Shown here in pieces: positions 7,065 to 17,398 of a stretch of DNA of 64,000 bases (positions are counted from its first letter, which is position 1; every line of letters begins with the position of its first letter). Source of the DNA: Alteriqipengyuania abyssalis (GTDB lineage Bacteria; Pseudomonadota; Alphaproteobacteria; Sphingomonadales; Sphingomonadaceae). Location of the stretch: NCBI RefSeq assembly GCF_019857185.1, contig NZ_JAHWXP010000001.1, forward strand, positions 558,001-622,000, written 5' to 3'. Made by a program: the position numbers and the translations under genes. The notes under the pieces are model-generated. The model saw only the letters and a program-made list of their open reading frames with translations, made no database searches and was not told where the DNA came from.

Positions 7065-7079
7065 GAACATAAAAGGAAC
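7065..7079 (+). promoter_or_regulatory. LexA box (GAAC-N7-GAAC) of imuAB
   Basis: GAAC, seven bases, GAAC: read on the other strand this is GTTC-N7-GTTC, the LexA operator known for alphaproteobacteria. It ends two bases before the imuA start codon, and its second half contains the Shine-Dalgarno-like AAGGA. A TAAAAT at 7058-7063 just before it could be the -10 element. A second box with the same geometry precedes the radical SAM gene. Confidence 0.82.
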
Positions 7080-7081
7080 AA

Positions 7082-7885
7082 ATGAGTCGTTCCGCCATGA
7101 TCCAAGACAGCCTTCCCACCGCCGCCCAGCTTGCATCCGATGCCACCTCACAGCGCTGGCAGCCCGGGCTGGATGCCGTCGCGCAAAGCGAGATCTTCGC
7201 CTCCGGACGAGAGGGCAGCGGGGCGGGCGTGGCACTTGCTCTGGCGCTCGACGCGTGGCGGCACCGGGTGCGCGAAGAGGGGGATGAGGCGGAGGATCGC
7301 CGCGCAGTGGTGTGGGTGCAGACCCGCGCCGCGGTGAAGCGGGGTGGGCGCCCGTTCCGGGCAGGCCTGCCGCAGGAAATCCGCCACCGCCTGATCCACG
7401 TGCTCGCCGAGAAGGACGAGGATGCGCTGTTTGCGCTGGAAGAGGCGGTGCGTTGCCGCGACATTGCCTTCGTGATCGGCGAGATCGTGGGCAGCCCCCG
7501 CGCGCTCGACTTCACCGCCTCGCGCCGACTGACGCTGGCGGCGGAGCGGCATGGCGTCCCGCTGATGCTGGTGCGGCTCGACGGAACGCGCGACCTCTCC
7601 TCCGCGCGGCAGCGCTGGGCGGTGCAGGCCGCACCCTCGGCAAGGCCGCAATGGAACCGTCAGGCTCCGGGCGTGCCTGCGTGGCAGGCCGAACTGTTCC
7701 GCGCGCGCAAGCACCCGCCGGGCCTGTGGCGATTGAGCGAGGATGCGGGGGCGTTGGTGGCGGAGCGAACTGGAGAGGGGCAGACTGCGGTTTCGAATGT
7801 CGCAGCCCCCTCTCCAGGCGCTGCTAGCTCCTTCGGAGCAAGCGTCGCCATCCTCTCCCCCACAGGGGAGAGGGTTAGTGGCTGA
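7082..7885 (+). CDS. imuA: ImuA, RecA-like SOS mutagenesis protein
   Basis: ImuA is a RecA/SulA-like accessory factor of the ImuA-ImuB-DnaE2 translesion mutasome induced by DNA damage. The 267-residue protein starts close to the LexA box. The recognisable core runs from about residue 25 to 210: a degenerate RecA fold with GREGSGAGVALAL in the nucleotide-loop position, RRAVVWVQTR, and FVIGEIVGSPRALDFTASRRL. Residues from about 231 to 264 are translated from a palindromic repeat element, so the natural family tail is probably extended or replaced. imuB follows after 2 bp, indicating translational coupling. An alternative in-frame ATG lies at 7097, but the 7082 start has the better spacing to AAGGA. 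Confidence 0.87.
   Translation: MSRSAMIQDSLPTAAQLASDATSQRWQPGLDAVAQSEIFASGREGSGAGVALALALDAWRHRVREEGDEAEDRRAVVWVQTRAAVKRGGRPFRAGLPQEIRHRLIHVLAEKDEDALFALEEAVRCRDIAFVIGEIVGSPRALDFTASRRLTLAAERHGVPLMLVRLDGTRDLSSARQRWAVQAAPSARPQWNRQAPGVPAWQAELFRARKHPPGLWRLSEDAGALVAERTGEGQTAVSNVAAPSPGAASSFGASVAILSPTGERVSG
7772..7873. repeat. Palindromic repeat element inside the 3' end of imuA
   Basis: Two inverted repeats: GGAGAGGGG (7772-7780) pairs with CCCCTCTCC (7807-7815), and CCTCTCCCC (7852-7860) pairs with GGGGAGAGG (7865-7873). This is the typical look of short dispersed intergenic repeats of sphingomonads, but here it lies in frame and encodes about the last 37 residues of ImuA apart from the final three. 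Confidence 0.72.
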
Positions 7886-7887
7886 AC

Positions 7888-9441
7888 ATGGCACCCCGCC
7901 GTATCCTCTCGATCTGGCTCGCGGCCTTCGCGATCGACCGCTGGCGTCTCGCCAAAGGCTGCGCGCGCGGTGAAGGCGCCGATGCGCAGCCGCTGGTCCT
8001 GATCACCGAGACCGCGCACGGCTCGCGCATCCAGGCGACGAACAGCGCGGCGCGAAACGCAGGCGCGCGGATCGGCACCATGCTCGCCGATGCGCGTACG
8101 CTGTGCCCCTCCATCGTCGCCGTGCCGGACAATCCGGCGGGCGATCTTGCCGAGCTGGAAAAGCTGGCCGCGTGGGCCATGCGCTGGGGCCCGTGGTCCG
8201 CGCTCGACCCGCCCGATGGCCTGCTGGTCGATGTGACCGCCGTGGCGCACCTGTTCGGCGGCGAGGCGAAGCTGCTGGCGGATGTCCATCATGCCTTCGC
8301 CGCGCGCGGCTTCGTCATGCGCGCTGCGATCGCGCCTACTGCCGGCGCGGCATGGGCGCTTGCGCATTACGGGCCGGATCGCGCGATCCTCGCCTCCGAA
8401 GACGATATGGAAGCGCGCCTGTCCGATCTGCCGGTTGCCGCGCTGCGGCTCGACGACGACGTGCTCACCGTGCTGCGGCGGCTCGGGCTCAAGCAGCTCG
8501 GCGAACTGGGCACGGTGGGCCGCGACGCACTCCATCGCCGTTTCCGCAACCGCAAGTCGCCTGCCGCCAACCCGCTGGTCCGAATGGACCAGCTGCTCGG
8601 TCGGATGCCCGAACCATTGCTGCCGGTGGTGCCGCAGCAGATGCCGCTGGTGCAGCGCCGGCTGATGGAGCCGATCCGCCACCGCGCGCTGCTCGACACC
8701 GTGCTGGGGGATCTGGCGGCGGACATGGTTCGCGAACTGGAAGGCACAGGGCAGGGCGCGCGTCGCCTCGACCTCGGGCTGTGGCGCGTCGACGGAGAGG
8801 TGGTCGTCAGAACGCTCGAACTCGCCGCCGCCACGCGCGATGCAGGCCATATCGTGCGGCTGTTCGGCGAGAAGCTGGGCGATGTCGACGCGGGCTTCGG
8901 GATCGAGCTGGTCCGCCTGCGTGCCAGCTGGGCGGAGGCGCTCCCCGCGAACCAGGTCGATATCGAAGCCGCCGCCGAACGGCATGGCACCTCGCTATCC
9001 GCCTTCGTCGACCGGCTGACTATGCGCCTCGGCCCCAAGGCGGTGCGCCGCCCGGTGCTGAAGGGAAGCCATGTGCCCGAACGCTCGCAAGCCTGGCAGC
9101 CGCCACTATCGCCCGAACCGCCCGAGCAGGGAGCTTTTCGCTTCCACGCGCGCCCGCTCAAACTGCTCGACAGGGCGGAGCCGATCGCGGTTCTCTACGC
9201 CACGCCCGACGGTTTTCCGCAGAGGTTTCGCTGGCGCGGGGAAGTGCATGAAATATCGCGGGTCGAGGGGCCGGAACGGATCGCACCCGAATGGTGGCGC
9301 GAACGCGGCAGCGCGCGGCTGCGCGACTATTACCGGATCGAGGATGATACCGGGCGACGCTATTGGATCTATCGCTATGGTATTGCAGGCGACGGGCGCG
9401 GCGGCGTGCCCGAATGGTTCCTGCAGGGCCTGTATGCCTGA
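7888..9441 (+). CDS. imuB: ImuB, non-catalytic Y-family polymerase-like protein
   Basis: ImuB is the hub of the DnaE2 mutasome: it resembles Y-family polymerases but lacks the catalytic acids, and it docks ImuA, DnaE2 and the sliding clamp. In this 517-residue protein the palm's first acidic motif is replaced by ILSIWLAAFAIDRW (residues 6-19) and the SIDE region reads PPDGLLVDVT, so catalysis is not expected. Helix-hairpin-helix-like DDDVLTVLRRLGLKQLGELG and little-finger segments follow. The C-terminal 100 residues form the ImuB-specific tail, ending VPEWFLQGLYA. The gene starts 2 bp after imuA and shares its LexA-controlled promoter. Confidence 0.92.
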   Translation: MAPRRILSIWLAAFAIDRWRLAKGCARGEGADAQPLVLITETAHGSRIQATNSAARNAGARIGTMLADARTLCPSIVAVPDNPAGDLAELEKLAAWAMRWGPWSALDPPDGLLVDVTAVAHLFGGEAKLLADVHHAFAARGFVMRAAIAPTAGAAWALAHYGPDRAILASEDDMEARLSDLPVAALRLDDDVLTVLRRLGLKQLGELGTVGRDALHRRFRNRKSPAANPLVRMDQLLGRMPEPLLPVVPQQMPLVQRRLMEPIRHRALLDTVLGDLAADMVRELEGTGQGARRLDLGLWRVDGEVVVRTLELAAATRDAGHIVRLFGEKLGDVDAGFGIELVRLRASWAEALPANQVDIEAAAERHGTSLSAFVDRLTMRLGPKAVRRPVLKGSHVPERSQAWQPPLSPEPPEQGAFRFHARPLKLLDRAEPIAVLYATPDGFPQRFRWRGEVHEISRVEGPERIAPEWWRERGSARLRDYYRIEDDTGRRYWIYRYGIAGDGRGGVPEWFLQGLYA

Positions 9442-9474
9442 TGCGATCGCGGCCCTGTCGGCTACCCGGAAAGG

Positions 9475-9789
9475 TCAGCTGCCCGAGAAAGGCGTCCCGA
9501 ACACGCCCACCGCCAGTTCGGCCCACACCAGCAGCAGCCCGGCGAGGATGCCGAGCACGGCGGCCACGCACCAGACGGGGCGCCCGATGACGCGGATTGC
9601 GAACTCGATCGCCAGCGCAGTCGCGCCCAGCAGCACCGCCGCCACAGCAAAATCGAATGGAGTCCAGTGCACCTCGCCGGTGAATTGCATCGCGACCAGC
9701 GGTGCAATCAGGATGGCGAGAAAGGAACCCCACAGGGCCACGCGCCAGATACGATTCGCGATACCAGACGTGATCGAAAGGTCGTCCAT
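9475..9789 (-). CDS. Small integral membrane protein, unknown function
   Basis: A 104-residue protein with three hydrophobic segments (about residues 17-36, 48-70 and 77-97) and no recognised domain. The start at 9789 is chosen because GGAGGAGAGG lies a few bases upstream. It stands alone on the minus strand, convergent with imuB (33 bp between the ends) and downstream of the carbonic anhydrase gene. Nothing ties it to DNA repair except position. Confidence 0.65.
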   Translation of the reverse strand: MDDLSITSGIANRIWRVALWGSFLAILIAPLVAMQFTGEVHWTPFDFAVAAVLLGATALAIEFAIRVIGRPVWCVAAVLGILAGLLLVWAELAVGVFGTPFSGS

Positions 9790-9903
9790 TCTGCCTCTCC
9801 TCCACACGAATCATGCGCATAAAGGCGAGCAAAGGCAAGAGGATAGCGGGCCGGTCCTCTCCGGGCCGGCCCGTCCTGTGTATAACGCGGTGGATTCGTC
9901 CGC

Positions 9904-10629
9904 TCAGCCGGGCAGGTCGAAGAAATCGACCGCGCCCGTTTCCAGGCTGTAATAGGCGCCCACGACCCAAAGCTTGCCCACCTGCTGGGGTTCGAGCAGC
10001 AGCGGATCGGTCTGTTCGCGCAGCTGCCTGACCACGCGGCGAACATTGGCGCGGATCGAGTTGTCGAGCAGGTTGCCCGCGTCGCCGCGCGCCTGCAGAA
10101 CGGCAGGGATGATCGGTTCGACCATCGGCCCGATCGAGCCGGGGAAGGTCGCATTGTCGGTGACGACCTCGGTCGCCGCCTTCACCGCGCCGCAGCTTTC
10201 GTGGCCCATCACCACCACCAGCGGTGTCTTGAGCACGGCGACCGCATATTCGATCGAGCCGAGCGCGACCGTGTCGACCGTGTTGCCCGCGTTGCGGATG
10301 ATGAACAATTCGCCGAGGCCGCGGCCGAACAGCAGTTCGGGCGGCACGCGGCTGTCCGAACAGGTCACGTAGGCCGCGAAGGGCTGCTGCCCGCGCGCGA
10401 GCTCCAGCCTGCGCTGGGCGCTGGTCAGCACGCTGGTCTGCTCACCGCGAAGGAAAGCGGCGTTGCCCTCGACCAGCAGGTCCAGCGCCTGGCGCGGCGT
10501 AAGGTCCTCGCCCGCCGGTGCCGCGCGCATTCCGGGCGTCTGCTGCGCGGCAAATGCCGCGCCGCCGCCCAGGAGGGCAGAGGCGCCGATCGCGCCGGTC
10601 GCCCCAAGCATGTTTCTGCGTGAAATCAT
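9904..10629 (-). CDS. Exported beta-class carbonic anhydrase
   Basis: A 241-residue beta-carbonic anhydrase that interconverts CO2 and bicarbonate using zinc. The zinc ligands are visible in CSDSR (Cys, Asp) and in GHESCG (His, Cys). The protein begins with SRRNMLGATGAIGASAL, a twin-arginine signal, so it is predicted to fold in the cytoplasm and act in the periplasm, unlike most bacterial beta enzymes. The start at 10629 has GGAGAGA a few bases upstream; the longer frame to 10698 adds residues that do not belong to the signal. It is divergent from the SOS-controlled radical SAM gene, with 232 bp between starts. Confidence 0.92.
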   Translation of the reverse strand: MISRRNMLGATGAIGASALLGGGAAFAAQQTPGMRAAPAGEDLTPRQALDLLVEGNAAFLRGEQTSVLTSAQRRLELARGQQPFAAYVTCSDSRVPPELLFGRGLGELFIIRNAGNTVDTVALGSIEYAVAVLKTPLVVVMGHESCGAVKAATEVVTDNATFPGSIGPMVEPIIPAVLQARGDAGNLLDNSIRANVRRVVRQLREQTDPLLLEPQQVGKLWVVGAYYSLETGAVDFFDLPG

Positions 10630-10844
10630 GTCTCTCTCCATCCCTTTGCGCGTCGATGGAGAGGTAGAAACAGGGCCATCGAACGCGCATCGTTTCAACA
10701 GGGCTCTTGCCCTGGATTACTCGATGCGGTCCGACATCACGCGCCAGAAGGCGCGCCAGAGGGGCCCGGTCCGCGTGAATTTCGTATCACCAAGGAGAGA
10801 AAATTCAAGTGCCCCAAGGGCTAGGGCTGGTATGACGACGAAAA

Positions 10845-10859
10845 GAACATATAAGGAAC
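10845..10859 (+). promoter_or_regulatory. LexA box (GAAC-N7-GAAC) of the radical SAM-udgX-dnaE2 set
   Basis: A second GAAC-N7-GAAC operator, ending two bases before the ATG of the radical SAM gene, exactly as at imuA. The two sites share ACATAAAAGGAAC versus ACATATAAGGAAC, and even the first codons ATG AGT CG are the same. AAGGA inside the box is again the likely ribosome binding site. Confidence 0.82.
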
Positions 10860-10861
10860 GA

Positions 10862-12103
10862 ATGAGTCGCGCACCGATCCTCGACAGGCTGAAGATTCTC
10901 GCCGATGCGGCGAAATACGATGCCTCCTGCGCCTCGTCCGGCACGGCCAAGCGCAACAGCACCAAGGGCGGGATCGGCAGCACCGAGGGGATGGGAATCT
11001 GCCACGCCTATGCGCCCGACGGTCGCTGCATATCGCTGCTGAAAATCCTGCTGACCAATCACTGCATCTTTGATTGCCACTACTGCATCAACCGCAAGAG
11101 CTCGAACGTGCAGCGCGCGCGCTTCACGCCGCAGGAGGTCGCGGATCTGACGCTCAGCTTCTACCGCCGCAATTATATCGAGGGGCTGTTCCTCTCCTCG
11201 GGCATCGTCAAGAGCTCCGACCACACGATGGAGCAGATCGTGGAGGCCGCGCGCATCCTGCGAGAAGAGTACGATTTTCGCGGCTATATCCACCTCAAGA
11301 CGATTCCCGAGGCGGACCCGGAGATCATCCACCGCGCTGGGTTTTACGCCGATCGCGTCTCGATCAATGTCGAATTGCCGACCGATGCCGGGCTGACGCG
11401 CCTCGCGCCGGACAAGGACGCGCGCCAGATCGAGGGCGCGCTGGGCAAGACCAGCAGCGACATCGTCGAGGCGAAGGATGCGAAGAAGCGCTTCAAGCAC
11501 GCGCCGCGCTTCGCGCCCGCAGGCCAGTCGACCCAGATGATCGTCGGCGCCGATGCGGCGAGCGATGCGGATATCGTGGGCCGCGCGAGCCGCCTCTACG
11601 ACAGCTTCGACCTGCGCCGCGTCTATTACAGCGCCTTCTCGCCGATCCCCGATGCCTCGGCGGTACTGCCGCTCAAGCGCCCGCCGCTGATCCGCGAACA
11701 TCGGCTCTACCAGTCGGACTGGCTGATGCGGTTCTACGATTACCGCCCGCAGGAGATCATGCAGGCGACCGAGGCCGACGGTAACCTGCCGCTCGATATC
11801 GATCCCAAGCTCGCCTGGGCACTGAAATTCCGCGAGCGCTTCCCGGTCGACGTCAACCGCGCGAGCCGGGAAGACCTGCTGCGCGTGCCGGGGCTGGGGG
11901 TGAAGGCGGTGCAGCGCATCCTCGCCTCGCGTCGCCACCGTACGCTCAGGCTCGACGACGTGGCCCGGCTGACCGTGTCGCTGACCAAGGTGCGGCCCTT
12001 CATCTGCACCATCGACTGGCGGCCGACGCTGCTGACCGACCGCGCCGACCTGCGCAGCCTGCTCGCGCCGAAGCAGGAACAGCTGGAGCTGTTTGCGGCA
12101 TGA
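10862..12103 (+). CDS. Putative DNA modification/repair radical SAM protein
   Basis: A 413-residue radical SAM enzyme. The iron-sulfur motif CxxxCxxC is at C68, C72 and C75 (NHCIFDCHYC). A C-terminal helix-hairpin-helix segment (about 333-372, VNRASREDLLRVPGLGVKA) suggests DNA contact. It belongs to the family usually found beside a DUF4130/uracil-DNA glycosylase-like gene and described as a putative DNA modification or repair enzyme; its substrate and product are unknown. The upstream frame reaches 10463, but the start at 10862 is supported by the LexA box/AAGGA and by the family N-terminus (LKILADAAKYDASC). udgX follows after 121 bp filled by a repeat, and the three genes probably form one damage-inducible operon. 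Confidence 0.92.
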   Translation: MSRAPILDRLKILADAAKYDASCASSGTAKRNSTKGGIGSTEGMGICHAYAPDGRCISLLKILLTNHCIFDCHYCINRKSSNVQRARFTPQEVADLTLSFYRRNYIEGLFLSSGIVKSSDHTMEQIVEAARILREEYDFRGYIHLKTIPEADPEIIHRAGFYADRVSINVELPTDAGLTRLAPDKDARQIEGALGKTSSDIVEAKDAKKRFKHAPRFAPAGQSTQMIVGADAASDADIVGRASRLYDSFDLRRVYYSAFSPIPDASAVLPLKRPPLIREHRLYQSDWLMRFYDYRPQEIMQATEADGNLPLDIDPKLAWALKFRERFPVDVNRASREDLLRVPGLGVKAVQRILASRRHRTLRLDDVARLTVSLTKVRPFICTIDWRPTLLTDRADLRSLLAPKQEQLELFAA

Positions 12104-12115
12104 GGCCCTCTTCCC

Positions 12116-12214
12116 TCCATCGTCATCCCCGCGAAGGCGGGGATCCAGCTAAGGGCTGTGACACGAGTAACTTCTGTCATCTGGCCCCCTGCCTTCGCAG
12201 GGGCGACGATCTGG
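12116..12214. repeat. Palindromic repeat element between radical SAM gene and udgX
   Basis: Starts with the common dispersed-repeat sequence CGTCATCCCCGCGAAGGCGG (hairpin ATCCCCGC/GCGGGGAT at 12125-12144) and ends with CCCCTGC-CTTC-GCAGGGG (12186-12203). It fills nearly the whole intergenic space, so a read-through transcript would carry two stable hairpins here. Confidence 0.78.
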
Positions 12215-12224
12215 AGTACGCGTC

Positions 12225-13658
12225 ATGACCGCACTCCAGCACGTCCGCCCGCACGCACATTACACCGTGCAACTGCCGCGCAGCGACGACTTCGCCTTCT
12301 GGCGCGAACGCGCGCGCGCGCTGATCCAGTGCGATATTCCGCCCGACAAGGTCGCCTGGATCGAGCCGAGCGGCAACGGCGATCTATTTTCGAATGGCGG
12401 CATGCGCCTGCCCGAGCCGCCCGCCGATGCGCCGCCCGTCCGCGCCAGCAAGCGCTACCTGAGCGTCGCGCAGAACGCCGCGCTGCATCGCGACCCGCAG
12501 CGGTTCGCGCTGCTCTACCGCCTGCTGTGGCGGCTGCAGCGAAACCTGAGGATCATGGAGGACAAGGCCGATCCCGACGTCCGCCGCGTGGAGGAGCTGG
12601 ACAAGAACGTCCGCCGCGACAGCCACAAGATGCACGCCTTCGTCCGCTTCCGGCAGGTGGAGGAAGAAGGTGGGGCGGAACACTACATCGCGTGGTTCGA
12701 GCCCGAGCATCACATCCTTCGCGCCAATGCGGGCTTCTTCATGCGCCGCTTCGCGAGCATGCGCTGGTCGATCCTGACCCCGCAGGGCACGCTGCACTGG
12801 GACGGCGAGACCATGCACGAAGGCCCGCCCGCGCAGAAGGCCGACGCGCCGCAGGGCGACCCGGTCGAGGACCTGTGGCGCACCTATTATGCGTCGATCT
12901 TCAATCCCGCGCGTTTGAAGGTCGGGGCGATGCTCTCCGAAATGCCCCGCAAGTACTGGAAGAACCTGCCCGAGGCCGCGCTCATTCCCGAGCTGGTCGC
13001 GGGCGCGCAGAAGCGGGAAAGCGAGATGGTGGCGGCAGGCGAACTGAGTTTCGAGGAACGGCCCGGGAGCCTGGAGGCGATCGGCGAAGCGATCGAGCAG
13101 TGTCGCAAGTGCCCGATCGGCTGCCTCGACAACCGCGCGGTGATGGGCGAGGGGCCGGGCGATGCGGCCCTGATGATCGTCGGCGAGCAGCCGGGCGATC
13201 AGGAGGACCAGGAAGGCCGGCCCTTCGTCGGCCCCGCCGGGCAACTGCTCGACGTGCATCTGGAGCGCGCGGGGATCGATCGGAGCCGCGCCTACGTCAC
13301 CAACGCGGTCAAGCACTTCAAGTTCGTCCAGCGCGGCAAGCGGCGGCTGCACCAGAGCCCGACCGCCAAGGAGATCGACACCTGCCGCTGGTGGATCGAG
13401 GGCGAGCGCGAGCTGGTGCAGCCCAAACTGGTGCTGGCGATGGGCGCCAGCGCGGCGCGCGGGATGCTGGGCAAGACGGTGAGCATTTCCAAGGTGCGCG
13501 GGCAGGCCATGTCGCTGGAAGACGGCAGCGAGCTGTGGGTCACCGCGCATCCGTCCTACCTGCTGCGCCTCGACGGCGACGCGCGCGAGAAGCAGGCGGC
13601 GCTGTTCGATGCCGACCTCGCCGCGGTGCGCGAGCGGTTGGCAGAGTTGGCTCAATGA
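12225..13658 (+). CDS. DUF4130-UdgX fusion, uracil-DNA-binding protein
   Basis: A 477-residue two-part protein. Residues 1 to about 255 are the DUF4130-like partner domain always linked to the radical SAM family upstream (SHKMHAFVRFR, FEPEHHILRANAGFFMRRF). Residues from about 285 form a uracil-DNA glycosylase fold of the UdgX type: GEQPGDQED at 320-328, FVGPAG, and the loop KRRLH at 372-376, whose histidine in characterised UdgX forms a covalent bond with the uracil site. C293, C296, C300 and C387 are candidate iron-sulfur ligands. HPSYLLR (442-448) closes the active site. It is probably damage-induced from the LexA box upstream of the radical SAM gene; dnaE2 follows after 137 bp of repeat DNA. 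Trapping rather than excision is inferred from the motif. Confidence 0.92.
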   Translation: MTALQHVRPHAHYTVQLPRSDDFAFWRERARALIQCDIPPDKVAWIEPSGNGDLFSNGGMRLPEPPADAPPVRASKRYLSVAQNAALHRDPQRFALLYRLLWRLQRNLRIMEDKADPDVRRVEELDKNVRRDSHKMHAFVRFRQVEEEGGAEHYIAWFEPEHHILRANAGFFMRRFASMRWSILTPQGTLHWDGETMHEGPPAQKADAPQGDPVEDLWRTYYASIFNPARLKVGAMLSEMPRKYWKNLPEAALIPELVAGAQKRESEMVAAGELSFEERPGSLEAIGEAIEQCRKCPIGCLDNRAVMGEGPGDAALMIVGEQPGDQEDQEGRPFVGPAGQLLDVHLERAGIDRSRAYVTNAVKHFKFVQRGKRRLHQSPTAKEIDTCRWWIEGERELVQPKLVLAMGASAARGMLGKTVSISKVRGQAMSLEDGSELWVTAHPSYLLRLDGDAREKQAALFDADLAAVRERLAELAQ

Positions 13659-13668
13659 TGCGAATACT

Positions 13669-13792
13669 CCCTACCGCGAAGCGGTGGGGAGGGGGACCAC
13701 CCGCAGGGTGGTGGAGGGGCCCTGGTGTCGCGCCGCGCCCCTCCACCGCGTTGTACGCGGTCCGCCTCCCCATGCAGGACACGGGGAGGATT
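13669..13792. repeat. Palindromic repeat element between udgX and dnaE2
   Basis: A chain of inverted repeats: CCCTACCGC-GAA-GCGGTGGGG (13669-13689), ACCACCC-GCA-GGGTGGT (13696-13712), a GGAGGGG/CCCCTCC pair further apart, ACCGCG-TTGTA-CGCGGT (13745-13761) and CTCCCC/GGGGAG near the end. It occupies the space before the dnaE2 start and leaves AGGA as the only plausible ribosome binding site. Confidence 0.72.
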
Positions 13793-13795
13793 TAG

Positions 13796-16700
13796 ATGCC
13801 CGAAGCACCACTCACCCCCGACAAGCGCCGGATAGAGATCGACCCCGATGGCGTCGATCCGCCACCGCGCGCGCCTTTCGTCGAGCTAGGCCTCGTCTCG
13901 TGCTTCAGCTTCCTGCGCGGCAGTTCGGACGCGGTCGACCTCGTGACCACCGCGCGAATGCTGGGCTACGACGCGCTGGGGATCGCCGATGCCAACACCA
14001 TGGCGGGCGTGGTGCGCGTGCATACCGAGGCGAAGACGCTCAAGCTCAGGCCTGTTGTCGGCACACGGATCGAGACGGTCGAAGGCCTCGCCTTTCTCGC
14101 CTACCCGAAGGATCGCGCAGCTTACGGGCGCCTGTGCCGCCTCATCAGCGCCGGGCGGATGAGTACGCCCGATGGCAGATGGCAGGAGAAGGGCGTGTGC
14201 GAGATTACCCTTGCGATGCTCGCCGACCATGCTGAGGATGTTCAGCTAATTCTGCTGCCACCTGACGATCTCGATGCGCGATTCACGATTGCGGTGCCGA
14301 GCAACGTTATCCCGTTCCGTCATCCCGGACTTGATCCGGGATCCCGCTTTTCTTCCCACACCGGTGCAGAAGAAGCGGGACCCCGGCTCGGGGGCCGGGG
14401 TGACGAGAACGTCATGATGATCCCCGCCGCTTTCCCCAGGCTCATCCCACACCTCACCGCGCAACTGCCCACCCTACGCCATATTGCGGCGGCGTATCTC
14501 TATCGCGGCGACGATATCGCGTGGATCGACCGGCTCGACGCCATGGCGCGCGAGCACGGCCTGTCGCTGCTCGCCACCAACGACGTGCATTACCACGTGC
14601 CCGAGCGGCGGCCGCTCAATGACGTCATGACGGCAATCCGCCACAAGACGACTGTGGAGGCCGCCGGCCACCTGCTCCACGCCAATGCCGAGCGGCACCT
14701 GAAATCGCCGGACGAGATGATCCGCCTGTTCGCACGCTGGCCCCATGCCATCATGGCGTCACGCGATATCGCGGATGCCTGCACCTTCAGTCTAGACGAG
14801 CTGCAATACGAGTATCCGAGGCGCGCCTATCCCGACGGCATGACCCCGCAGCAACATTTGGAACAGCAGACGTGGGAGGGTGCAAAATGGCGCTATTCCA
14901 ATGTGATACCTTCCAAAGTTAAAACCACGCTTGAGTATGAGCTGGGGCTGATCGGCAAGCTCGATCTCGCCCCCTATTTCCTCACCATCAAGGAAATCGT
15001 CGATTTCGCGCGCAGCCAGACGCCCCCGATCCTGTGCCAGGGGCGCGGCAGCGCCGCCAATTCCGCCGTGTGCTTCTGCCTCGGTATCACCAGCGTCGAT
15101 CCTGCCGAGCACCAGTTGCTGTTCGACCGGTTTCTCTCCGAAGAGCGCAGTGAGCCGCCCGACATCGATGTCGATTTCGAGCATGAGCGGCGAGAGGAAG
15201 TCATCCAGCATATTTACAGGGAGTATGGGCGGGATCGCGCCGGACTGTGCGCCACCGTCATTCACTATCGCCCGCGCATGGCGATCCGCGAGGTGGGCAA
15301 GGCCATGGGCCTGTCGGAAGACGTCACCGCCTCGCTCGCACGCACCGTATGGGGTGGCTGGGGGCGCGAGATCGGCGAGGATCACGTGGCCGAAACGGGC
15401 ATGGATATCACCGATCCGCATTTGAGGCGCGTTCTCACACTCACCAGCCAAATGATTGGAATGCCGCGACATCTTTCCCAGCATGTCGGCGGGTTCATCC
15501 TCACCGACGGATTGCTGACCGAGACCGTGCCGATCGGCAATGGCGCGATGCCTGACCGCAGTTTCATCGAATGGGACAAGGACGACATCGACGATCTTGG
15601 CATCTTCAAGGTCGATGTACTCGCGCTCGGGATGCTGACCTGCATCCGCAAAGGCCTCGATCTGCTGGAGGACCATTACGACCGTCCGCTGACCCTCGCC
15701 ACCATCCCGCAGGAGGATCCGGCGGTGTACGACATGCTGTGCAAGGGCGATTCGCTCGGCGTATTCCAGGTCGAGAGCAGGGCACAGATGAACATGCTGC
15801 CGCGCCTGCAACCGCGCCAATTCTACGATCTGGTGGTGCAGGTCGCGATCGTGCGCCCCGGCCCGATCCAGGGCGATATGGTCCACCCCTATCTCAAGCA
15901 GCGGCGATTGGCGCGCGCGGGAAAGACCGATTTCCAGCTTCCTGCGCCCGCGCCCGAGCATGGTCCGCCAGACGAGCTGTCCTCGATCCTTGGGCGCACT
16001 TTCGGGGTGCCGATCTTTCAGGAGCAGGCGATGAAGATCGCCATCGATGCGGCCAGGTTCTCTCCGGCAGAGGCCAACCGCCTGCGCCGGGCGATGGCCA
16101 CCTTCCGCAGCCGGGGAATGGTGCATGCGCATGAGGAAATGATGGTCGGACGCATGATAGAGCGTGGCTACGACCCCGATTTCTCCCAGCGCTGCTTCGA
16201 CCAGATCAAGGGTTTCGGGGAATATGGCTTCCCGGAGAGCCATGCGGCTAGCTTCGCGCACCTCGTCTACGTCTCCAGCTGGCTCAAGTGCCACTATCCG
16301 GCGGCCTTCGCCTGCGCGCTGCTCAATTCGCAGCCGATGGGCTTTTACGCGCCCGCACAGATCGTGCGAGACGCGGCCGAACATGGGGTCGCGGTGCTGC
16401 CGGCGGATGTGAATGGGTCGGACTGGGATTGTACGCTGGAGGAAATTTCTCCCCCCTCGGGCGAGGACATGAGGCCCATGGCCCTGCGCCTCGGCCTGCG
16501 CCAGATCGACGGTTTCCCTGAGCATGTCGCGGCCAAGCTGGTCGCGGAGCGGGTGGAGCGCGGCTCTTACCGCGATGTCGCCGAGCTGCGCGACCGTGCG
16601 GGACTTGCTCCCTCGCATGTCGAGCGGCTCGCCAGCGCCGATGCCTTCCAGTCGCTCGACCTGCCGCGCCGGCAGGCTCTGTGGGACGCGCGCAGCCTGA

Positions 16701-17398
16701 TCGCCGCGCCAGACCTGCCGCTGTTCCGTGCAGCGGCAGAGCGTGAGGAGGGGGCGGAGAAAGCCCGCACCGCGCTGCCCGTCATGCCGCTCTCCGAAGA
16801 AGTGGTCGCGGATTACCAGACCACCCGGCTCAGCCTGAAGGCGCATCCGATGACGTTTCTGCGCGCAGACCTGGCCGCGCGTGGCTTCGTGCGCGCGTGC
16901 GACCTGCGCGAGCGCAAGTTCCGCAGCATGGTGCAGGTCGCGGGCGTCGTGCTGATCCGGCAGCGGCCGGGCAGTGCCAAGGGCGTGTGCTTCATCACGC
17001 TGGAGGACGAGACGGGGGTGGTGAACCTGGTCGTGTGGCCCGATCTCAAGGAAAAGCAGCGCAAGGTGGTGATGGGCGCGCGGCTGATGGAGGTGCGCGG
17101 GCGGGTGGAGTACGATGACGAGGTGATCCACGTCATCGCCCACCACATGACCGATGCGACACACATGCTTGCACGCCTGTCCGACGATGCGCTGCGCTAT
17201 GAGCTGGCGCGCGCGGACCATGTCAATTCACCGCTGCCGTCAGGTAAGATCAATCCGCGCGATGACCTGCGCGACGGGGCGGAGGATCCCGCTGGCGGCC
17301 AAGCGACCCGCCCCCGCGATCTGATCGACGAGCTGCCGAACACCGGGGGTCATCCACGCAATGTCCGGATCATTCCCAAGTCACGCGACTTTCATTGA
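13796..17398 (+). CDS. dnaE2: Error-prone DNA polymerase III alpha subunit DnaE2 (ImuC)
   Basis: The catalytic polymerase of the ImuAB mutasome, copying past DNA lesions with low fidelity. The 1200-residue protein starts with a PHP domain (ELGLVSCFSFLRGSSD, residues 30-45) whose metal ligands are degenerate, as in other DnaE2. The C-family polymerase core has the catalytic aspartates in PDIDVDF, then GVPIFQEQAMKIA and FGEYGFPESHAASFA; a C-terminal OB domain follows (VQVAGVVLIRQRPGSAKG). Residues 175-204 are translated from an inserted palindromic repeat, so the protein is longer than its relatives. It is the third gene after the LexA box at 10845, and no separate LexA box is visible before it. 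The next gene's ATG overlaps its stop (TGATG). Confidence 0.95.
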   Translation: MPEAPLTPDKRRIEIDPDGVDPPPRAPFVELGLVSCFSFLRGSSDAVDLVTTARMLGYDALGIADANTMAGVVRVHTEAKTLKLRPVVGTRIETVEGLAFLAYPKDRAAYGRLCRLISAGRMSTPDGRWQEKGVCEITLAMLADHAEDVQLILLPPDDLDARFTIAVPSNVIPFRHPGLDPGSRFSSHTGAEEAGPRLGGRGDENVMMIPAAFPRLIPHLTAQLPTLRHIAAAYLYRGDDIAWIDRLDAMAREHGLSLLATNDVHYHVPERRPLNDVMTAIRHKTTVEAAGHLLHANAERHLKSPDEMIRLFARWPHAIMASRDIADACTFSLDELQYEYPRRAYPDGMTPQQHLEQQTWEGAKWRYSNVIPSKVKTTLEYELGLIGKLDLAPYFLTIKEIVDFARSQTPPILCQGRGSAANSAVCFCLGITSVDPAEHQLLFDRFLSEERSEPPDIDVDFEHERREEVIQHIYREYGRDRAGLCATVIHYRPRMAIREVGKAMGLSEDVTASLARTVWGGWGREIGEDHVAETGMDITDPHLRRVLTLTSQMIGMPRHLSQHVGGFILTDGLLTETVPIGNGAMPDRSFIEWDKDDIDDLGIFKVDVLALGMLTCIRKGLDLLEDHYDRPLTLATIPQEDPAVYDMLCKGDSLGVFQVESRAQMNMLPRLQPRQFYDLVVQVAIVRPGPIQGDMVHPYLKQRRLARAGKTDFQLPAPAPEHGPPDELSSILGRTFGVPIFQEQAMKIAIDAARFSPAEANRLRRAMATFRSRGMVHAHEEMMVGRMIERGYDPDFSQRCFDQIKGFGEYGFPESHAASFAHLVYVSSWLKCHYPAAFACALLNSQPMGFYAPAQIVRDAAEHGVAVLPADVNGSDWDCTLEEISPPSGEDMRPMALRLGLRQIDGFPEHVAAKLVAERVERGSYRDVAELRDRAGLAPSHVERLASADAFQSLDLPRRQALWDARSLIAAPDLPLFRAAAEREEGAEKARTALPVMPLSEEVVADYQTTRLSLKAHPMTFLRADLAARGFVRACDLRERKFRSMVQVAGVVLIRQRPGSAKGVCFITLEDETGVVNLVVWPDLKEKQRKVVMGARLMEVRGRVEYDDEVIHVIAHHMTDATHMLARLSDDALRYELARADHVNSPLPSGKINPRDDLRDGAEDPAGGQATRPRDLIDELPNTGGHPRNVRIIPKSRDFH
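14318..14405. repeat. Palindromic repeat inserted in frame in dnaE2
   Basis: The outer arms CGTCATCCCGG and CCGGGGTGACG are inverted copies with one mismatch, and the interior holds ATCCCGGA...TCCGGGAT and CCCGCTTTTCTTC...GAAGAAGCGGG pairings. The sequence CGTCATCCCGGACTTGATCC is a widely dispersed sphingomonad repeat. It is translated as residues 175-204 of DnaE2 (HPGLDPGSRF and onward), in the PHP domain, without breaking the frame. Confidence 0.8.

Follow-up and report, generated by a model that had tools for sequence, protein, structure and literature searches.

A 64-kb stretch of DNA of Alteriqipengyuania abyssalis (the whole of which is hereafter called the window) raises the question of what a radical S-adenosylmethionine (SAM) gene of the family TIGR03916 (rSAM) and a DUF4130–UdgX fusion gene (udgX) may be doing among the genes of an ImuA–ImuB–DnaE2 mutasome. 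The order of the elements is a first LexA-type box, imuA–imuB, two minus-strand genes, a second LexA-type box, and then rSAM, udgX and dnaE2. The explanation favored here, with moderate confidence and on the evidence of sequence, is that rSAM is an SOS-induced, clamp-docked radical repair enzyme acting beside the ImuB–DnaE2 mutasome, with UdgX capturing uracil or abasic sites. The regulation and the pairing of these genes are known in outline; the novelty lies in a conserved clamp-type motif on an uncharacterized radical SAM enzyme, which is the new, testable part and which was overlooked in an earlier reading of the same DNA (the original prediction).

The C-terminus of the radical SAM protein

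The rSAM gene and the motifs of its product are located in the window as follows:
10862–12103, plus strand: radical SAM gene, TIGR03916 (577.4 bits, curated cut-off 343.5; AlphaFold model with a predicted local distance difference test (pLDDT) value of 85.1 and a predicted template modeling (pTM) score of 0.83)
11063–11086, plus strand: CxxxCxxC radical SAM cluster motif (C68, C72, C75), from the sequence
11846–11935, plus strand: helix-hairpin-helix motif, residues 329–358 (PF12836, 26 bits, just under the cut-off of 27)
12080–12094, plus strand: clamp-binding-type pentapeptide QLELF, residues 407–411

Homologous loci were taken from 100 same-family regions (99 of which hold rSAM), from 80 of the 586 named-genome relatives, and from a viral collection (one locus); the highest-ranking named relatives were Sphingomonadales, e.g., Qipengyuania, Pelagerythrobacter and Erythrobacter. 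The 181 loci, including the window, gave 180 with an rSAM frame and, after the merging of four identical proteins, 176 distinct sequences; L159, with a stop inside the rSAM match and no frame, and L160, with no rSAM, were left out, while the frame-broken L156 was counted as lacking the motif. The same-phylum set from outside the class comprised 25 of the 29 genomes with rSAM over the cut-off and was taken as beta- and gammaproteobacteria.

The strict tail pattern required Q(L/M/F/I)x(L/M) and then F/L/I/M, either immediately or one residue further on, within the last 16 residues; the motif occurred in both penta- and hexapeptide forms. It was present in 175 of the 176 alphaproteobacterial rSAM proteins (as QLELF in 111), the single exception being the frame-broken L156. 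The same pattern was found in only 4 of 3204 other C-termini (frames of at least 250 codons from the same loci) and in 2.9% of shuffled tails. The C-termini of neighboring gene products did not carry it (udgX 0/97, imuB 0/27, dnaE2 0/29 and imuA 0/26, i.e., 0/179), compared with 98 of 99 for rSAM. Among 45 further sequences, the strict form was found in 10 of the 25 loci from other classes of the phylum, in 14 of 16 alphaproteobacterial loci, and in four records from plasmid or phage collections (L263, L265, L266 and L273), of which L265 and L273 were both from Acinetobacter and had the same tail.

Related tails were seen by eye in Bacteroidota, Bacillota, Fusobacteriota and Gemmatimonadota, namely, QLKLF in Fusobacterium, QLILEF in Phocaeicola, QLILPF in Parabacteroides, QLLLDF in Bacteroides, QLSLW in Gemmatirosa, QLSIF in Acetoanaerobium, and QLSLF in Subdoligranulum, Spirosoma and Pusillibacter. 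The tails of L264, L267, L269, L270, L271 and L340–L345, likewise read by eye and standing outside the pattern counts, each had the motif, which in L267, L270, L271 and L343 was followed by extra residues; in the tail of the broken gene L272, no motif was seen.

According to a passage of a review (PMC9690074), a C-terminal QL(S/D)LF marks proteins that bind the bacterial beta clamp, and this consensus may vary. Residues 407–413 of rSAM, which hold the motif, form one of two stretches of the AlphaFold model with a pLDDT below 50, which fits a free tail. It should be noted that several counts weigh against this reading of the tail. Of the 25 loci from other classes of the phylum, 15 escaped the strict pattern (QMALW, QGSLF, QASLF, etc.), as did 2 of the 16 further alphaproteobacterial loci (QLGFGF); a widened pattern fitted 29/29 and 16/16, but it was composed only after QMALW, QGSLF and QASLF had been seen, and its background was higher (49/3868). 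In ImuB, which is likewise proposed to dock on the clamp, 36 of the 44 relatives listed had a QxxLxF-type motif at about residue 410; the other eight lacked it, and QGAFRF of the window ImuB is a weak form of this clamp-type motif. In mycobacteria, the ImuB clamp motif is essential to mutasome function, as stated in a portion of PMC10421592. On balance, the tail probably hooks rSAM to the beta sliding clamp (DnaN), which would give TIGR03916 a likely place of action at the replication fork.

Along with C68, C72 and C75, the cysteines C23, C47 and C56 were kept, so that all six were present in 222 of 222 sequences. The fold search with the rSAM model gave HydE, lipoyl synthase, biotin synthase, MqnE, RlmN and others among the matches listed, whereas spore photoproduct lyase (SplB) was absent among them, which is inconclusive; solved relatives retrieved by sequence (best E-value 0.032) were not informative. 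These data bear on the alternative that rSAM is a direct-reversal enzyme of the SplB kind, acting on UV thymine damage with DUF4130 as its partner. Both are radical SAM proteins, and a likeness to SplB is suggested in a passage of PMC3765255; however, rSAM differs from SplB in its helix-hairpin-helix and clamp-type tail, the fold matches listed belong to other radical SAM families, and the same genome has another boxed radical SAM gene (L013). This alternative is considered very improbable.

LexA-type boxes and the control of dnaE2

The two boxes and the genes lying upstream of rSAM are listed below:
7065–7079, plus strand: predicted LexA operator 1, GAACATAAAAGGAAC, ending two bases before the imuA ATG at 7082
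7082–7885, plus strand: imuA (NF033429, 25.3 bits, under the cut-off of 150; identified by its position before imuB and by tblastn to relatives)
7888–9441, plus strand: imuB (Pfam matches to IMS, which was weak, IMS_C and DUF6504), bearing QGAFRF where most relatives show a QxxLxF clamp-type motif
9475–9807, minus strand: orphan open reading frame (ORF) of 110 residues, outside the module; no family match in profile searches
9904–10698, minus strand: carbonic anhydrase (PF00484, 130.8 bits), intervening and outside the module
10845–10859, plus strand: predicted LexA operator 2, GAACATATAAGGAAC, ending two bases before the rSAM ATG at 10862

The two GAAC-N7-GAAC boxes placed by the original prediction two bases before the imuA and rSAM starts were both present at those positions. 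The flanks, which had been described as almost identical, matched in only 26 of 37 bases, mostly within the box itself; AAGGA was indeed common to both sites and lies inside each box. The shared ATG AGT CG is regarded as incidental because the closest relatives do not keep it at both sites, and for the same reason the similarity of the flanks was ruled out as a sign of duplication. The two minus-strand genes separating imuB from rSAM had been omitted; of the 100 family regions, 7 had the orphan ORF at this place and 1 had the carbonic anhydrase.

The bare pattern is not rare in 64 kb (three sites in the window, with 1.47 expected, and 15 of 100 shuffles reaching three), so that the window alone proves little and the case is carried by conservation. 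A box (GAAC-N7-GAAC or its complement) was found within 80 nt upstream of the rSAM start in 170 of the 176 distinct rSAM genes, namely, in 97/99 of the family set, in 72/76 of the named set, which spans Brevundimonas, Rhizobium, Aurantimonas, Henriciella and Rhodobacteraceae, and in the single viral-collection locus. In the controls, the reversed pattern was found in 2/176, the shuffle rate was 0.002, and the background was 0.0035 per 80 nt. The spacing of exactly two bases between box and start occurred in 105/176, and two of the six genes without a box (L108 and L127) had, as read by eye, a box with one base changed. imuA was preceded by a box in all 26 adjacent-type family loci with imuA in range. 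In same-phylum loci outside the class, an E. coli-type CTG-N10-CAG was detected within 120 nt upstream in 17 of 25 (background 0.05 per 120 nt). The remaining eight loci, which had no such box and before which Xanthomonas-type LexA boxes were sought and not found, speak against the generality of this control. Nevertheless, given the frequencies of the two operator types, LexA-type control of the rSAM gene is conserved even though the operator itself changed with the clade, as judged from sites at which LexA would bind.

In the genome of A. abyssalis (3.1 Mb assembly), GAAC-N7-GAAC was found at 59 sites, compared with 32 for the reversed control, and one such box also precedes lexA. Boxes were likewise observed before a Toprim/CHC2 primase-like gene (L003, G000:C1:101600), before a gene that we take to be radA-like (L023, G000:C1:708445), and before rmuC (L024, G000:C1:989222). 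In L013, the second radical SAM gene of this genome, which may be the SplB-like one, the box (G000:C1:358494–358508) overlaps the predicted start region.

Downstream of rSAM, the following features were distinguished:
12104–12224, no strand: dispersed palindromic repeat of 121 bases filling the rSAM–udgX gap, self-complementary at 12119–12210, with nine further partial matches in the same genome
12225–13658, plus strand: DUF4130 (TIGR03915, 228.1 bits) fused to UdgX (TIGR03914, 320.7 bits), both over the cut-off
13659–13795, no strand: dispersed palindromic repeat of 137 bases filling the udgX–dnaE2 gap, self-complementary at 13685–13772, with three partial matches at two other places in the same genome
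13796–17398, plus strand: dnaE2, error-prone polymerase III alpha subunit (NF004225, 1362.6 bits, cut-off 939)

The three mutasome genes and the LexA-type boxes were thus all found, with ImuA matching weakly, and DNA-damage-induced mutagenesis by ImuA–ImuB–DnaE2 is predicted from them. In its three genes, its LexA-type boxes and the ImuB clamp-type motif, the system resembles the known mutasome; it differs in that dnaE2 is split from imuAB and stands behind rSAM–udgX and the second box.

It had been proposed that box 2 drives rSAM, udgX and dnaE2 jointly, and a search of relatives for the adjacency of these genes had been suggested; dnaE2 was directly behind udgX in 29 of 99 family rSAM loci. 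The 200 nt preceding dnaE2 contained an exact LexA-type box in none of these 29 adjacent loci. As measured by tblastn ends, the udgX–dnaE2 gap was 4–21 bases in 23/29, and rSAM and udgX overlapped by four bases in 13/29. Since dnaE2 has no box of its own in these loci and mostly follows udgX at so short a distance, box 2 probably controls dnaE2. Joint control is thus made probable by the relatives and is less clear at the two window junctions with their inverted repeats. Indeed, these palindromic repeats may attenuate transcription and uncouple dnaE2 from box 2, and in the other 70 of the 99 family loci dnaE2 was not beside the rSAM–udgX pair, so that adjacency is not required; both points count against the proposed coupling. 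The alternative that dnaE2 is expressed here from another promoter, the rSAM–udgX neighborhood being positional only, would agree with the two repeat elements separating the genes and with the instability of the arrangement on the rSAM tree, but the missing dnaE2 box and the tight spacing in most relatives argue against it, and it is held to be quite unlikely.

On that tree, the split order was clustered, with 13 changes over 99 rows compared with 25.7 in shuffles; the rSAM–udgX–dnaE2 order fell within one branch of 48 rows (support 81, quick tree) and changed several times. Of 117 further loci, 12 had the full split order and three more had it in part (two of them cut by contig ends), while in another arrangement, found in three (L240 of Henriciella, L330 and L331), imuABC and rSAM–udgX diverge from a shared box. 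The split imuAB/rSAM–udgX–dnaE2 order is a clade-level variant. Among the 149 family genomes, dnaE2 co-occurred with rSAM in 96/100, compared with 36/49 of the remainder (p = 1.2 × 10−4, uncorrected for relatedness).

Within dnaE2, at 14400–14600, the stretch HPGLDPGSRFSSHTG... resembles a derivative of a dispersed repeat; a second copy was not found in the window by blastn.

The DUF4130–UdgX partner

The following element was located in the UdgX part:
13338–13352, plus strand: R-loop KRRLH with H376, equivalent to the cross-linking His, aligned to KRRIH of 6ail

A section of PMC10359453 gives the UdgX criteria as motif A GEQPG, the R-loop with R107 and H109, and motif B HPS(S/A)(L/V)(L/V)R. 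GEQPG was present in the window protein, R374 and H376, the equivalents of R107 and H109, were invariant in 32 of 32 sequences, and motif B was HPSYLLR, with Y in place of the described S/A. The uracil-DNA glycosylase (UDG) part of the model matched UdgX 6ajp (TMt 0.88), and the 50 matches listed for the joint DUF4130–UdgX model were all of the UDG superfamily except 9qhs, a phage DNA polymerase, and 3ikb, an uncharacterized Streptococcus protein. The window protein is thus like UdgX of Mycobacterium smegmatis in GEQPG, in KRR(I/L)H with its nucleophilic His, in HPS..LLR and in fold, and unlike it in the fusion to DUF4130 and in the Y of motif B. With these hallmarks, the putative role of UdgX as a covalent uracil trap, as originally predicted, is retained.

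Of the 149 family genomes, 100 had rSAM over the cut-off and 101 had TIGR03915, and all 100 rSAM genomes, as read by eye, had TIGR03915; the unpaired cases were G046, with TIGR03915 alone, and G116, with an rSAM fragment below the cut-off alone. In the wider samples the family was sparser: TIGR03916 exceeded its cut-off in 12 of the 240 genomes sampled from the class and in 84 of the 398 sampled from the phylum. In most of the alphaproteobacterial loci examined, the gene next to rSAM encoded a DUF4130–UdgX fusion. Outside these, two observations count against UdgX as a constant part of the proposed system: DUF4130 adjoined rSAM without UDG in annotated loci of Bacteroidota (L341, L342 and L344), Pusillibacter and Acinetobacter, and tblastn showed no UDG next to DUF4130 in 15 of the 25 loci from other classes of the phylum. 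In Fusobacterium, rSAM is followed by a frame of 248 residues. Consequently, rSAM–DUF4130 looks like the core and UdgX like an addition, and the UdgX step would not be essential to this core. In a single family relative, L151 (G108), the UdgX half was missing from DUF4130, and no dnaE2 reached the cut-off.

The same data bear on two further explanations. In the first, the genes form a uracil base-excision pair linked to SOS, which removes what the induced error-prone polymerases have misincorporated, and rSAM is merely an accessory DNA-binding factor. This is near the reading of COG1573–COG4277 given in a passage of PMC8565304; however, the constant pairing of rSAM with DUF4130 and the existence of pairs without UDG argue against uracil excision as the core, the enzyme UdgX is described in the cited section of PMC10359453 as trapping rather than turning over, and six invariant cysteines would be expected of an active enzyme. 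This explanation is therefore regarded as unlikely. In the second, rSAM–DUF4130 resolves or regulates the covalent UdgX–DNA complex. The frequent alphaproteobacterial fusion beside rSAM would suit such a role, as would the statements in that section that resolution is RecA-dependent or proteolytic and that the role is unknown. Since rSAM–DUF4130 is found in other phyla with no UdgX, this is unlikely to have been the original role, and the explanation is rated as highly improbable.

Proposed mechanism and related systems

The SOS-induced, clamp-docked repair enzyme favored above is built on the operators and their conservation, the gene order, the family memberships, the clamp-type motifs and the six invariant cysteines as read from the DNA; the binding of LexA and of the clamp, docking at the same time, the substrate and the chemistry are inferred. 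Upon DNA damage, the two LexA operators would separately switch on imuAB and rSAM/DUF4130–UdgX/dnaE2. The rSAM protein, as a DNA-acting radical enzyme, would dock on the beta clamp via its C-terminal QLELF and hold DNA via the helix-hairpin-helix, while ImuB would dock via its own QxxLxF-type motif, bringing DnaE2. Induced together, the repair enzyme and the mutasome would be able to occupy a single clamp where a fork has stalled or a gap is left. There, the rSAM–DUF4130 pair may repair or modify the damaged base directly, UdgX may trap uracil, or the abasic site that results, in a covalent complex that shields it, and ImuB–DnaE2 may copy past the remaining damage. The finding links UdgX to the mutasome and bears on the bacterial choice between repair and mutation after damage.

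More tentatively, and with less than even confidence, TIGR03916 might comprise, across bacteria, radical SAM enzymes that repair DNA on the sliding clamp, which would then carry both a lesion-reversal enzyme and a mutagenic polymerase. If so, repair and mutation would either compete on a single ring or give way to one another there, and C23, C47 and C56 would perhaps form an auxiliary iron–sulfur site, with new DNA chemistry. To our knowledge, this would be the first link between a radical SAM enzyme and the replication clamp.

The original prediction was partly supported, its novelty being overstated. No paper found in the open-licence literature searched described a clamp-binding motif on a radical SAM protein or assigned a reaction to TIGR03916; among the papers listed, those mentioning both radical SAM and the sliding clamp deal, to judge by their titles, with phages and an antibiotic. 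The link to SOS and mutagenesis is already in print: a passage of PMC3765255 connects the rSAM–UDG pair with SOS and mutagenesis genes, and a passage of PMC8565304, citing work on Verrucomicrobia and Caulobacter, describes COG1573–COG4277 of Bacteroidetes (TIGR03916 presumably corresponding to COG4277) as a system of two genes under SOS regulation. The window genes are like this system, with TIGR03916, TIGR03915 and TIGR03914 all over the NCBIfam cut-offs, and differ from it in the position of the window copy, which has imuB on one side, dnaE2 on the other and a LexA-type box of its own. The cellular role of UdgX is called largely unknown in the section of PMC10359453 cited above, and an excerpt of a Streptomyces LexA study (PMC9380542) lists one radical SAM gene.

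A phage or plasmid origin of the gene was considered and rejected: one locus came from the viral collection and ten matches from the phage records. Two of these ten, CAKLQH020000003 and CAKLQF020000004, are named as Acinetobacter phage and hold a radical SAM repair gene; in the one examined, L273, it lies beside glyS and glyQ, and the record looks like bacterial chromosome.

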